Of a DNA stretch of 64,000 nt, positions 21,118 to 63,426 are shown piece after piece (the first letter of the stretch is position 1; each line of letters starts with the position of its first letter). The translations under genes were made by a program, and so were the position numbers. The notes under the pieces were generated by a model. It ran no database searches and was not told where the DNA came from. It was given only the letters and a program-made list of their open reading frames with translations. This DNA is from Aureimonas sp. Leaf324 (GTDB lineage Bacteria > Pseudomonadota > Alphaproteobacteria > Rhizobiales > Rhizobiaceae), in assembly GCF_001423245.1 (NCBI RefSeq), contig NZ_LMOH01000023.1, forward strand, positions 63,645-127,644. Direction: 5' to 3'.

Positions 21118-21287
21118 CGGCATATCTCTCGTGTGCGAAGCTGACCGGTGTTGCCGTCTGACGACATCATGGCGCCGAGTCCAGTCCGATTCCAAAATGC
21201 GCGGTCAGGGTCGTTTTTTCTGTTGCGTATGACAACTGCCGTTTCTATATCCCGCCTTGCCCAATGTCGCACGTGCCTGTGGGCGTC
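21118..21287. other. Intergenic region between LysR gene and decarboxylase leader
   Basis: About 170 bases that must contain the LysR promoter (minus) and the decarboxylase promoter (plus). It is locally A+T richer than its surroundings around 21190-21255. No operator could be assigned, and small open frames here are not convincing. Confidence 0.4.
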
Positions 21288-21365
21288 CCCCGGACCTTCG
21301 AATGCGAAGATCACCGGGTCGGTCACTGGAGTTCGTCTCCAGGTCGGTTTCGCTGCTGGCGAAAT
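21288..21365 (+). ncRNA. Structured leader upstream of the decarboxylase, candidate speF motif
   Basis: Three consecutive hairpins are visible. CCCGG 21289-21293 pairs with CCGGG 21314-21318 and encloses CTTCG/CGAAG. CTGGAG 21326-21331 pairs with CTCCAG 21337-21342. TTTCGC 21348-21353 pairs with GCGAAA 21359-21364. An RNA element called speF is known upstream of ornithine decarboxylase genes in alphaproteobacteria, and this is the right position and gene. I matched position and structure density, not the full consensus, so the family name is tentative. A further 280 bases of unassigned leader separate it from the start codon. Confidence 0.55.
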
Positions 21366-21643
21366 CGTGGACGCCTTGAAGCAACGACGGTGAGGGCCTT
21401 TCTGGTCTCTCCTGGTCTCCATAGCCAGGAATACTGCAGAGGCACACCATCCTTGCCTGAAGTGCGGCGAGCGTAGCTCTCCAATCCACGGCAGACTTTA
21501 CCGGATCCTTTGGCGGCTTACCCCGTCGTCGGGTCTGCATATGTCGCGTTTCGCGTTCGCTTCACGTGCGGGGTCTCCACCGGCTGCATGTGGGAACGAA
21601 TGTGTGCGCTCCTCGTCAACCTCATGGTTAACCGGAGCTTCCG
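21366..21643 (+). other. Remainder of the decarboxylase 5' leader
   Basis: About 280 bases without a credible gene. It includes a self-complementary GGTTAACC just before the start codon (around 21625) and short partial repeats such as CTGGTCTC. It may hold the expression platform of the upstream RNA element or a second promoter. Confidence 0.4.
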
Positions 21644-22777
21644 ATGGCTACGCAGCGCATTCTCGACTTCATCGCCACCCGCCGCCCCGCCGGCCCCTGC
21701 CTCGTCGTCGACCTCGACATCGTCGAGGACAATTTCCGCGCGTTCCGCAAGGCGCTGCCGGACAGCTCCATCTTCTATGCCGTGAAGGCCAATCCCGCGC
21801 CGGAGATCCTGCGTCTCCTGGCGTCGCTCGGCTCGTCCTTCGATTGCGCCTCGGTCGCCGAGATCGAGATGGCGCTCGACGCCGGTGCCACGCCGAACCG
21901 CATCTCCTTCGGCAACACCATCAAGAAGGAGCGCGACGTCGCGGCCGCCCATGCGCTCGGCGTCTCGCTCTTTGCGGTCGATTGCGTCGAAGAGGTCGAG
22001 AAGGTCGCCCGCGCGGCGCCCGGCGCGCGCGTCTTCTGCCGCGTCCTCACCGACGGCGAAGGTGCCGAGTGGCCGCTGTCGCGCAAGTTCGGCTGCGTCC
22101 CGGCGATGGCGATCGACGTCCTGACCCATGCCCGCGACCTCGGCCTCGTCGCGACCGGCGTCTCGTTCCACGTCGGCTCGCAGCAGTGCGATACCGAAGC
22201 CTGGGACAAGGCGCTGGCCGACGCGGCGATGGTGTTCGGCCAGCTAGCCGAACGGGGCATCGTGCTGACGCTCGTCAACATGGGCGGCGGCTTCCCGACG
22301 CGCTACCTCAAGGACGTGCCGTCGGCGCAGGCCTACGGCCGCTCGATCTTCGCCGCGCTCCGACGTCACTTCGGCAACCAGATCCCGGAGACGATCATCG
22401 AGCCGGGCCGCGGCATGGTCGGCGACGCGGGCGTCATCAAGGCCGAGGTCGTGCTGGTCTCGAAGAAGTCTGTCGAGGACAAGAACCGCTGGGTCTACCT
22501 CGACATCGGCAAGTTCGGCGGCCTCGCCGAGACGATGGACGAGGCGATCCGCTACCCGATCGTGACGGCGCGCGACGACGACCGCATGGAGCCCTGCGTC
22601 ATTGCCGGGCCCACCTGCGACTCGGCCGACGTGCTCTATGAGAAGACCCCCTACCCGCTGCCGATCTCGCTGACGGTGGGTGACGAGGTCCTGATCGAGG
22701 GCACCGGCGCGTACACGACGACCTACTCGGCCGTCGCGTTCAACGGGTTCGAGCCGCTTCGCTCCTACGTCATCTGA
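21644..22777 (+). CDS. Ornithine/lysine decarboxylase, PLP fold type III
   Basis: 377 residues, the length of eukaryotic-like/alphaproteobacterial ODC. It decarboxylates ornithine to putrescine, and possibly lysine to cadaverine. The PLP lysine is K48 in FYAVKANP. The HVGSQQCD stretch, the glycine loop NMGGGFPTRY, EPGRGMVGDAG, and GPTCDSADVL with catalytic C325 from the partner subunit are all present. The C-terminus YTTTYSAVAFNGFEPL is typical. The GNAT gene 124 bases downstream on the same strand is a frequent neighbour in Hyphomicrobiales. Likely regulated through the structured leader, by analogy with known polyamine-linked leaders. Confidence 0.94.
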   Translation: MATQRILDFIATRRPAGPCLVVDLDIVEDNFRAFRKALPDSSIFYAVKANPAPEILRLLASLGSSFDCASVAEIEMALDAGATPNRISFGNTIKKERDVAAAHALGVSLFAVDCVEEVEKVARAAPGARVFCRVLTDGEGAEWPLSRKFGCVPAMAIDVLTHARDLGLVATGVSFHVGSQQCDTEAWDKALADAAMVFGQLAERGIVLTLVNMGGGFPTRYLKDVPSAQAYGRSIFAALRRHFGNQIPETIIEPGRGMVGDAGVIKAEVVLVSKKSVEDKNRWVYLDIGKFGGLAETMDEAIRYPIVTARDDDRMEPCVIAGPTCDSADVLYEKTPYPLPISLTVGDEVLIEGTGAYTTTYSAVAFNGFEPLRSYVI

Positions 22778-38968: not shown

Positions 38969-39005
38969 AAAAAGGGGCCGGTCCCCCGTGGGAGACCGGC
39001 CCCTT
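38969..39005 (-). terminator. Intrinsic terminator of the DadA-type gene
   Basis: GGGGCCGGTC (38974-38983) and GACCGGCCCC (38994-39003) make a perfect 10-bp stem. On the minus strand it is followed by five T residues (AAAAA at 38969-38973). It lies 17 bases past the gene's stop codon, so it belongs to the minus-strand transcript. Confidence 0.9.
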
Positions 39006-39022: not shown

Positions 39023-40336
39023 TCAGGCCGCTTCGGTCAGGCGCTCGGCTTCGGCGCGCACGGCGGGCACCGGCTTCAGCTCAGGCCGTACGGAGACGCC
39101 GGCGGCCGCGTAGTCGCCCGCGACTTCGGCCGCGATCGTGTCGGCGGTGATCGCCGACAGCGTCCAGCCGAGATGGCCGTGGCCGGTGTTGTAGTAGACG
39201 CCCTTCGCCTTACCGCGGCCGACGCGGGGCATCATGTCCGGCATCATCGGACGCAGGCCCGCCCAGGGCACGACCGAGGCGGTCGAGACGCCGGGGAAGC
39301 GATGGCGGCACCAGTCGACCAGCGGCTTGATGCGGTCCATACGGATGTCGCGGTTCTCGCCCGCGAACTCCGCCGTGCCCGCGATGCGCAGCCGGTCCGC
39401 GCCGAGCCGGCTCGTCACGATCTTCGCCTTGTCGTCGAGGAGCGACACGTAGGGCGCTCCCTCGCGGCTCGCCTCGTCGGTGAGGTTCACGGTGATCGAG
39501 TAGCCCTTGACCGGGTAGACGTTCACGCGGTCGCCGAGCTGGCTGGCGAAGCGGCGGCTGGCGACGCCGGCGCACACGACCACGGCGTCGAAGTCCTCGC
39601 GGACCGGCTCGCCCTCGTGGCCGACGGTGCGCGAGAAGACGGCAGCGCCGCCCTCCGTGCGCGTCGAAAGCCGCGTCACGTCCGCCTCGTAGCGGATCTT
39701 GCCGCCACGACGCACCACGGCGTCGGCAAGGCCGCGCGTGTACTTGTGGATGTCGCCCGTGAAGTCCGACTCGGTGAAGAAGCCGCCGTGGAACGTGCCG
39801 GCGAGCGCCGGCTCGATCGCATGGATCTCGGCGTCGGTCAGGGTCCGCCGCTCGAGACCGCCCTTGGCGTAGAGCTGGCTGACGCGCGCGGCGTGCTCGA
39901 ACTCGGACTTCGATTCATAGACATGCAGGATGCCGCGCTTGACGAGGTCGAACTCGAAGCCCTCACGCTCGGCCATCTCGATGAGATGCTGCCGGGCGGC
40001 GATCGCGAGCTTCACGGTCGCGACGGTGTTCTCCTCGTAGGAGCGCGCGGCCAGCACGAACTCGGCCATCCAGGACAGCTTGTGCCAGGTCGGCGCAGGA
40101 TGGACGAGAAGCGGCGCGTCCTTCTTGAGCATCCACTTGATGCCCTTGATGAAGGTCGACGGCGAGTTCCAGACCTCGGCGTTCGAGGCCGAGAGCTGGC
40201 CGCCGTTGGCGAACGAGGTCTCCATGGCCGAGTAGGCGTTCCGGTCGAAGACCGTCACGTCGAGGCCCTGCGAGAGGAGCTTGTATGCGGTGGTGATGCC
40301 GGTGATGCCGGCGCCGATGACGGCCACTGAGGTCAC
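39023..40336 (-). CDS. dadA: DadA-type FAD-dependent D-amino-acid dehydrogenase / glycine-oxidase-like
   Basis: 437 residues from GTG 40336, with AAAGGA about 8 bases upstream. The N-terminal dinucleotide fold SVAVIGAGITGITTAYKLLSQG, the FAD-binding DRNAYSAMETSFANGGQLSA, and the C-terminal YYNTGHGHLGWTLS FAD contact give a clear DAO fold. DadA oxidises D-amino acids, typically D-alanine, to keto acids and passes electrons to the respiratory chain. Unusually, the gene is preceded by a tandem glycine riboswitch rather than by an alanine racemase or an Lrp/DadR regulator. Glycine, the only achiral amino acid, is a plausible substrate of this relative. Assigning 'dadA' follows the family; the substrate is open. 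Confidence 0.88.
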   Translation of the reverse strand: MTSVAVIGAGITGITTAYKLLSQGLDVTVFDRNAYSAMETSFANGGQLSASNAEVWNSPSTFIKGIKWMLKKDAPLLVHPAPTWHKLSWMAEFVLAARSYEENTVATVKLAIAARQHLIEMAEREGFEFDLVKRGILHVYESKSEFEHAARVSQLYAKGGLERRTLTDAEIHAIEPALAGTFHGGFFTESDFTGDIHKYTRGLADAVVRRGGKIRYEADVTRLSTRTEGGAAVFSRTVGHEGEPVREDFDAVVVCAGVASRRFASQLGDRVNVYPVKGYSITVNLTDEASREGAPYVSLLDDKAKIVTSRLGADRLRIAGTAEFAGENRDIRMDRIKPLVDWCRHRFPGVSTASVVPWAGLRPMMPDMMPRVGRGKAKGVYYNTGHGHLGWTLSAITADTIAAEVAGDYAAAGVSVRPELKPVPAVRAEAERLTEAA

Positions 40337-40348
40337 GACAGGTCCTTT

Positions 40349-40365
40349 CCCCGCACTGTTGCGGG
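40349..40365 (-). promoter_or_regulatory. Hairpin between the glycine riboswitch and the DadA gene start
   Basis: On the minus strand CCCGC (40361-40365) pairs with GCGGG (40350-40354) around a 6-base loop. It ends only a few bases before the AAAGGA ribosome-binding site (around 40344-40349). It could be the riboswitch expression platform that opens or closes the site. This is a structural inference. Confidence 0.45.
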
Positions 40366-40387
40366 TTGCCTTCGTGCCCCTCCGTCA

Positions 40388-40560
40388 CTGGCCTGAGAGT
40401 TTCACGGCGGGGAAGCATTCCCACGTCCGCTTTCTCCTTCGGCGGACGACCGAAATCGGCCGTCACTCTCCGGATATGGTTTGCGCCGCGCGGTCCTTTT
40501 GCCTGAGAGTTTCCGGGGCGGTTGCTCCTTCGGCGCCGGCCTTTCGGCCGGTCTCTCCCG
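40388..40560 (-). ncRNA. Tandem glycine riboswitch upstream of the DadA-type gene
   Basis: Two aptamers are visible reading leftward. The first (about 40560-40500) has GGGAGAGACC, then CCGAAGGAGCAA (40533-40522) and AACTCTCAGGC (40511-40501). The second (about 40474-40391) has CCGGAGAG, CGCCGAAGGAGAAA (about 40444-40431) and the terminal AACTCTCAGGC. The GGAGAG, CCGAAGGRGYAA and ACTCTCAGGC blocks are the diagnostic core of the gcvT-type glycine riboswitch. A linker of about 26 bases (A-rich start AAAAGGACC) joins the aptamers, as in cooperative tandem forms. The strand is fixed by the orientation of the conserved blocks and leads into the GTG start at 40336. Glycine is thus predicted to control this gene. 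Confidence 0.93.
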
Positions 40561-40637
40561 CAAGCGGCGATGGCCCTTACATATGGGAATAGGACGAATG
40601 CGGCAAGTTCAAAGAATCCGCAGCCGCTGCCCAGATG

Positions 40638-63018: not shown

Positions 63019-63426
63019 GGGCGGAGTGTCCGATGCGGTGGACGGGTGCCGTGCGATGGCGGGCGCCGCGCGATACGGCACGCAGATGGCGGCATGAAGG
63101 CTTGCGGGCCATTGATCGTCCACGCGCCCGCGGCTTCTCGACACGCCATCCTCTCGCTTCATAACCGTCCAAGCGCCGGCCGGCAGCACAACTCGCCGTG
63201 TCCACGATGACGGTGCAGCACTATGCGCGTTGGTCGGCCCCGTTGAAACCGGCGACGGGACCTGTTAGGCACCCACCAGCATCAAGAGTTGGACCGATGT
63301 CCAACGCCAACCTGCCGTCCGGGCAAGGTGGCGCTCCGCAAGGGGGATGTGGCCGCACCGGCAACCAAACGGAGCCCCGCCATATCGCAGCGCATCGGTC
63401 CCGCGACGAATGGCGGAGACAGACGC
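63019..63426. other. Intergenic region without a supported gene
   Basis: About 400 bases. It must contain the dgkA promoter on the minus strand and the promoter of the 96-aa gene on the plus strand. Open frames here lack a ribosome-binding site and family features. No hairpin stronger than local GC would predict was found. Confidence 0.45.

Follow-up and report, generated by a model that had tools for sequence, protein, structure and literature searches.

Why should a tandem glycine riboswitch stand in front of a single gene for an oxidoreductase of the DAO fold and not in front of the genes of glycine cleavage? This question is raised by a locus in a stretch of 64,000 nucleotides (nt) from contig NZ_LMOH01000023.1 of Aureimonas sp. 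Leaf324 (the whole stretch is called the window here), which belongs to an Aureimonas-like genome of 4.4 megabases and 99.93% completeness. An earlier note, made from the letters of the window, had described the switch and suggested that the DadA-like enzyme behind it may act on glycine. We consider it likely that the locus comprises a glycine-activated tandem switch on a one-gene unit for a glycine dehydrogenase dependent on flavin adenine dinucleotide (FAD), which would back up or replace glycine cleavage. A broader proposition, on which we are evenly divided, is that the protein family concerned, NF009074/PRK12409, consists of unrecognised respiratory FAD glycine dehydrogenases that serve as a riboswitch-induced one-gene alternative to glycine cleavage and replace it outright in several lineages, and that in Aurantimonadaceae the switch acts by releasing the start codon, together with the first codons, from the P1 3′ strand of aptamer 2.

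A search with the Rfam glycine riboswitch model (RF00504; gathering score 32) matched aptamer 1 at 40481..40570 (66.6 bits, E 1.2e-11) and aptamer 2 at 40372..40483 (54.8 bits, E 2.5e-10), both on the minus strand, back to back and sharing 3 bases. The two leftward aptamers of the earlier note and their location were thereby confirmed, although the second core reads CCGAAGGAGAAA and not CCGAAGGRGYAA, and the 5′ edge of the switch, at about 40570, lies ten bases past the end that the note had given. The possibility that aptamer 2 is degenerate was rejected on its score; it is missing from some match lists through the filtering of overlaps within the same clan. Both aptamers lead into a single expression platform with the ribosome-binding site and the start. 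Here, as the note had also stated, a small hairpin with a 6-bp stem (40350..40365, minus strand) lies just 5′ of the ribosome-binding site AAAGGA (40343..40348, minus strand), downstream of which the gene begins with a GTG codon at 40336. These two elements were read from the sequence, as was a terminator-like inverted repeat with a T-run 3′ of the gene (about 38969..39003, minus strand), on account of which the gene looks monocistronic. Elsewhere in the genome, no further RF00504 match was found among the 150 of 536 first-look candidates that were scored. The tandem is predicted to bind glycine and control the expression of the gene.

The gene itself (39023..40336, minus strand) encodes 437 residues with the DAO domain (PF01266) that the note had described behind the switch, and the protein is a member of NCBIfam NF009074 (681.7 bits against a cut-off of 494), a family of FAD-dependent amino acid dehydrogenases; we propose that it is a glycine dehydrogenase. 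By family score, DadA (NF001933/PRK00711; 334.5 bits against a cut-off of 383) and ThiO (TIGR02352; 141.4 bits against 250.8) were both rejected as identities. Among the best 80 of 402 relatives, the closest named ones are from Aureimonas, with 97% identity to the protein of A. phyllosphaerae over 437 residues. The predicted structure (predicted local distance difference test, pLDDT, 86.4) has a glycine oxidase as its top structural match.

In the remainder of the genome, GcvP and GcvH gave 0 matches in searches that were positive in 10/14 and 13/14 control genomes, and no standalone gcvT was seen. The four matches to GCV_T are confined to proteins of other domain make-up or length, namely a sarcosine-oxidase-alpha-type protein with an SO_alpha_A3 domain, an 853-residue DAO+FAO_M+GCV_T protein, a 277-residue protein, which we take for YgfZ, and a 194-residue frame below the cut-off. 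Thus, no glycine cleavage system is visible in this genome, for which an ordinary gcvTHP switch was rejected, and the earlier statement that the switch does not control a glycine cleavage operon holds both at the locus, where no gcvT, gcvH or gcvP lies under it, and genome-wide. A malate synthase domain is present.

The NCBIfam name of NF009074 suggests instead a broad D-amino acid dehydrogenase acting on D-alanine and D-serine, for which glycine would be merely a signal, e.g., of disturbed D-alanine metabolism in the cell wall. This fits the 35% identity between the window protein and the DadA of the same genome, as well as the kinetics of Escherichia coli DadA, whose kcat/KM is 5.71 per M per s for D-serine vs 0.275 for glycine (PMC9436414). 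We nevertheless hold such a role to be rather unlikely, because the genome already has a true DadA (P0002; 686.7 bits to NF001933, cut-off 383) beside Alr on another contig, where an alanine racemase frame (PF01168, PF00842) overlaps the start of the dadA gene and where the genome search with RF00504 reported no glycine aptamer. One of the eight AsnC/Lrp-family matches of the genome lies about 1.5 kb before the dadA match (C27:107932). Within the window, by contrast, a tblastn search with the genome's own Alr gave no match and none of the eight AsnC/Lrp-family matches is found, in agreement with the earlier remark that alanine racemase and DadR are absent nearby. In addition, the destruction of D-alanine at high glycine would be expected to aggravate the effect on the wall, and the number of aptamers tracks the presence of GcvP and the NF009074 gene, as described below. 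A third DadA-like protein (P0003; L115:1450-2697, minus strand) has a GHGHLGL motif and scores 210.7 bits to NF001933, below the cut-off. The frames next to it look like dihydrodipicolinate synthase and proline racemase, and the locus perhaps serves hydroxyproline catabolism.

The earlier note had regarded the window as a single odd locus, a view that has to be abandoned. In the best 80 of 402 orthologue loci, which were fetched and searched up to 450 nt upstream of the gene, the CTCTCAGG core occurs at least once in 77/80 and at least twice in 74/80; it is missing at L044, L054 and L058 and single at L004, L037 and L067. An Rfam search of 50 of these 80 genomes placed a switch within the same distance of the NF009074 gene in 47/50, with two aptamers in 45/50, and by organism names the pairing extends over Aurantimonadaceae, other alphaproteobacteria and Burkholderiales (betaproteobacteria). 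A full-length GcvP (>390 bits) is present in 15 of the 50 genomes. Twelve of these carry a tandem at gcv, and ten of the twelve carry another at the NF009074 gene; G327 and G338 have a tandem at gcv only, and the Aurantimonas genomes G311, G313 and G316, which have GcvP and no gcv switch, have their sole tandem at the NF009074 gene. A Skermanella genome contains a fifth RF00504 match (G333:C243:8603-8694), which lies away from both gcv and the NF009074 gene.

About 70 nt separate the switch from the 3′ end of a same-strand gene lying upstream, which encodes an ATP-binding cassette (ABC) transporter ATPase (ABC_tran). The switch might be no more than a relic, or be transcribed by read-through from an upstream ABC-transporter operon, and exert no real control of the gene. 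This seems to us highly improbable, because the cores of the aptamers hardly vary across 21 sequences (the window and 20 relatives), unlike the flanks, and because the upstream neighbours of the switch change between lineages. No conserved operon partner was found, in that no neighbour keeps a fixed place outside close relatives in gene calls filtered by codon bias, a filter that left the NF009074 gene itself uncalled in 8/80 loci; some gene clusters recur at varying places, such as cluster 8 near L004, L060, L061 and L078.

A count in 297 genomes of the order relates the switch to the two possible target systems. RF00504 was matched in 13/13 genomes that have the NF009074 gene without GcvP, in 221/227 that have GcvP alone, and in 6/43 that have neither; five of these six are less than 90% complete, so that a missed gcvP is likely there. 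All 14 genomes with both the NF009074 gene and GcvP have at least three aptamer matches, as opposed to 10/227 with GcvP alone. The NF009074 gene is also enriched in genomes without GcvP, a protein that is lacking in 13 of the 27 carriers of the gene vs 43 of the 270 other genomes (Fisher p 2.5e-4). The 13 genomes with the gene only, two of which (G134 and G262) are less than 90% complete, are spread over nine family labels, and relatives in f22, f31, f35, f42 and f43 hold GcvP instead or as well. These counts are strong, but are uncorrected for relatedness. One genome (G132) has two NF009074 copies, GcvP and six RF00504 matches; switches may increase in number with their target genes. In genomes without GcvP, RF00504 is retained almost exclusively alongside the NF009074 gene, and induction by the substrate is the simplest reading of this.

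The opposite direction of control has also to be weighed. Among the structures close to the protein model are sarcosine oxidases and an iminodiacetate oxidase, and OFF-type glycine riboswitches are known on transporters (PMC6944388); the substrate might then be an N-substituted glycine such as sarcosine or iminodiacetate, from which the enzyme would release glycine, with the switch exerting end-product control. We think this distinctly improbable, as it leaves unexplained both the enrichment of the gene in genomes without GcvP and the persistence of the switch there, and as genes of the sarcosine-oxidase-alpha and DAO+GCV_T types, with no switch, already exist elsewhere in the window's genome. 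Furthermore, aptamer 1 outscores aptamer 2 in 45/45 complete pairs (mean 65.8 vs 47.4 bits), and in glycine-cleavage switches it is reportedly aptamer 1 that is more conserved (PMC6944388); yet the gcv switches of our set are mixed, with aptamer 1 ahead in 7/12, and the asymmetry therefore lends only weak support to an ON switch.

The suggestion that the DadA-like enzyme acts on glycine thus draws support from its separate family, the switchless alr-dadA pair elsewhere, the absence of GcvP and GcvH, the recurrence of the pairing and the aptamer counts, all of them genomic observations. In the mechanism that we propose, rising glycine would close both aptamers, the aptamer-2 P1 helix would form, and translation could begin at the freed mRNA start region. 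The NF009074 enzyme would convert glycine into glyoxylate and ammonia, in which case "D-amino acid dehydrogenase" is a mis-naming; the electrons would probably pass to quinone, by analogy with DadA, and the glyoxylate would enter central metabolism through malate synthase. Where a glycine cleavage system is lacking, this enzyme would be the main glycine outlet, and lineages with both systems would usually have a separate switch for each.

The translational step could involve a candidate anti-initiation strand at 40372..40387 (minus strand), which comprises the aptamer-2 P1 3′ strand TGACGG (40387-40382) and GGGGCACGA (40380-40372). In Aurantimonadaceae, this strand can pair with the first seven codons, the start codon included. 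Of the window and the 80 loci, 72 entered a test of this helix; L053, L072, L073 and L077 have no start codon close to the match and were left out, and so were the rest because the motif was not in range. In permutations that ignore relatedness, the cognate helix of Aurantimonadaceae (38 sequences) reached -23.9 kcal/mol vs a shuffled mean of -22.3, with 0/1000 permutations as low, whereas outside this family (34 sequences) the cognate pairing was not favoured (642/1000 as low). Among 29 distinct sequences, pairs were counted in 225/261 and 169/174 cells vs 104-127 and 26-144 when the strands were slid; P1-strand slides of 3 still gave high counts (141 and 144). The five start-codon pairs totalled 117 vs a shuffle mean of 107.7, a count reached in 0/2000 shuffles. 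There is partial covariation opposite the first start-codon letter, where 14 GTG sequences have C and three ATG sequences have T; in 12/29 that position is unpaired. Compared with synonymous recoding, the helix is only modestly better (-19.5 vs -17.7; 1/29 in the lowest 5%), and for the window's own helix recoding does equally well (103/200). When the leader was simply folded, the aptamers were not recovered; aptamer 1 taken by itself shows no unusual stability relative to shuffles (z -0.92), and the leader hairpin at 40365-40350 varies among relatives. We keep the anti-initiation helix as a hypothesis that is possible, if somewhat doubtful.

Several points weigh against a glycine dehydrogenase under a glycine switch. 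The glycine activity of the NF009074 enzymes is a prediction from genomic evidence. In the alignment, an invariant histidine (His388) replaces an arginine that we take to be the second carboxylate-binding one of glycine oxidase. Moreover, the DAO fold is common to many amine oxidases and, to our knowledge, no DadA structure has been solved, so the structural match to glycine oxidase is weak evidence. In the 297-genome set, a switch just upstream of the NF009074 gene was confirmed by position, among the matches listed, in at least five genomes besides the window's own (G043, G118, G148, G233 and G250), and the genomes are related, so that the counts are not independent. Full-length GcvP was not found in 35 of the 50 genomes of the Rfam search, a figure that depends on their completeness, which was not given. 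Three of the same 50 have the NF009074 gene with no switch in front (L044, L054 and L067), and L058 also lacks the core motif; one of these, Fulvimarina endophytica (L054), has the gene yet neither an RF00504 match nor GcvP. Finally, the related DadA of E. coli shows hardly any activity on glycine, with the kcat/KM given above and a KM of >500 mM (PMC9436414), and the proposed activity would therefore be a real divergence.

Two further RNA elements occur in the window. An S-adenosylmethionine (SAM-I/IV) riboswitch aptamer lies near its end (63274-63378, plus strand; 58.0 bits, cut-off 41.1). An ar45 small RNA (112.1 bits) stands directly before a speF leader (63.9 bits) at 21259-21580 (plus strand), and the pair precedes a gene of the ornithine/arginine/diaminopimelate decarboxylase family at 21644-22777.

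In the excerpts available, glycine switches of Proteobacteria are assigned to gcvTHP, transporters, malate synthase and a few serine genes (PMC2211319, PMC3766115, PMC12452182, PMC2704228), and NF009074 is not named there as a target; the 2013 regulon survey lists twelve glycine-metabolism orthologues under the switch (PMC3766115). Phrase searches of the literature retrieved no paper pairing a glycine riboswitch with a D-amino acid dehydrogenase; the supplementary gene tables of PMC3766115 lay outside these searches, so that the pairing may already be listed there. In the excerpts, the riboswitch-linked glycine oxidase is thiO under a thiamin pyrophosphate switch, and D-amino acid dehydrogenases are mentioned without a glycine switch in a paper on a Burkholderia small RNA (PMC5760752) and in the Brucella ovis flavoproteome (PMC9045290). 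Were our proposal true, an annotation in wide use would be wrong, and a second glycine-disposal route, whose genes are recognisable by their RNA switch, would be common in Proteobacteria. It would then be understood how glycine excess is avoided in bacteria that lack glycine cleavage, and metabolic models would change, with glyoxylate and electrons in place of one-carbon units. There would also be a clear example of a single RNA sensor that serves two alternative enzymes replacing each other within bacterial families.

The proposed enzyme resembles known proteins to various degrees. With the DadA of its own genome (NF001933/PRK00711), the window protein shares, besides 35% identity, the DAO fold and the GLRP and GHGxLGW motifs; on the other hand, that DadA has Thr in place of His388 and Tyr at a position that is mostly Ala304 in the window family, and the window protein has a distinct GGQLSASNAE loop. 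The window gene also differs from dadA in having no alr alongside and a glycine switch in front. Identity to the ThiO structure 4ysh is 22%, with His388 instead of the second Arg, and no thiamin gene was found among the six scanned neighbours of the window gene. Glyphosate oxidoreductase (PMC12452685), compared by motif alone, has a GHxHxG motif similar to that of the window protein. The switch itself resembles the tandem gcvTHP glycine riboswitch in having two adjacent aptamers above the cut-off, on the same strand and just 5′ of a single start codon, but it targets the gene of an FAD-dependent amino acid dehydrogenase, and neither GcvP nor GcvH was detected in the genome. The nearest parallel in its choice of target is the switch of glcB (malate synthase) in Candidatus Pelagibacter (PMC2211319, PMC2704228), which likewise precedes a non-cleavage gene on the glyoxylate route; the Pelagibacter switch controls the step after glyoxylate, whereas that of the window, if our reading is right, would control the step by which glyoxylate is made.
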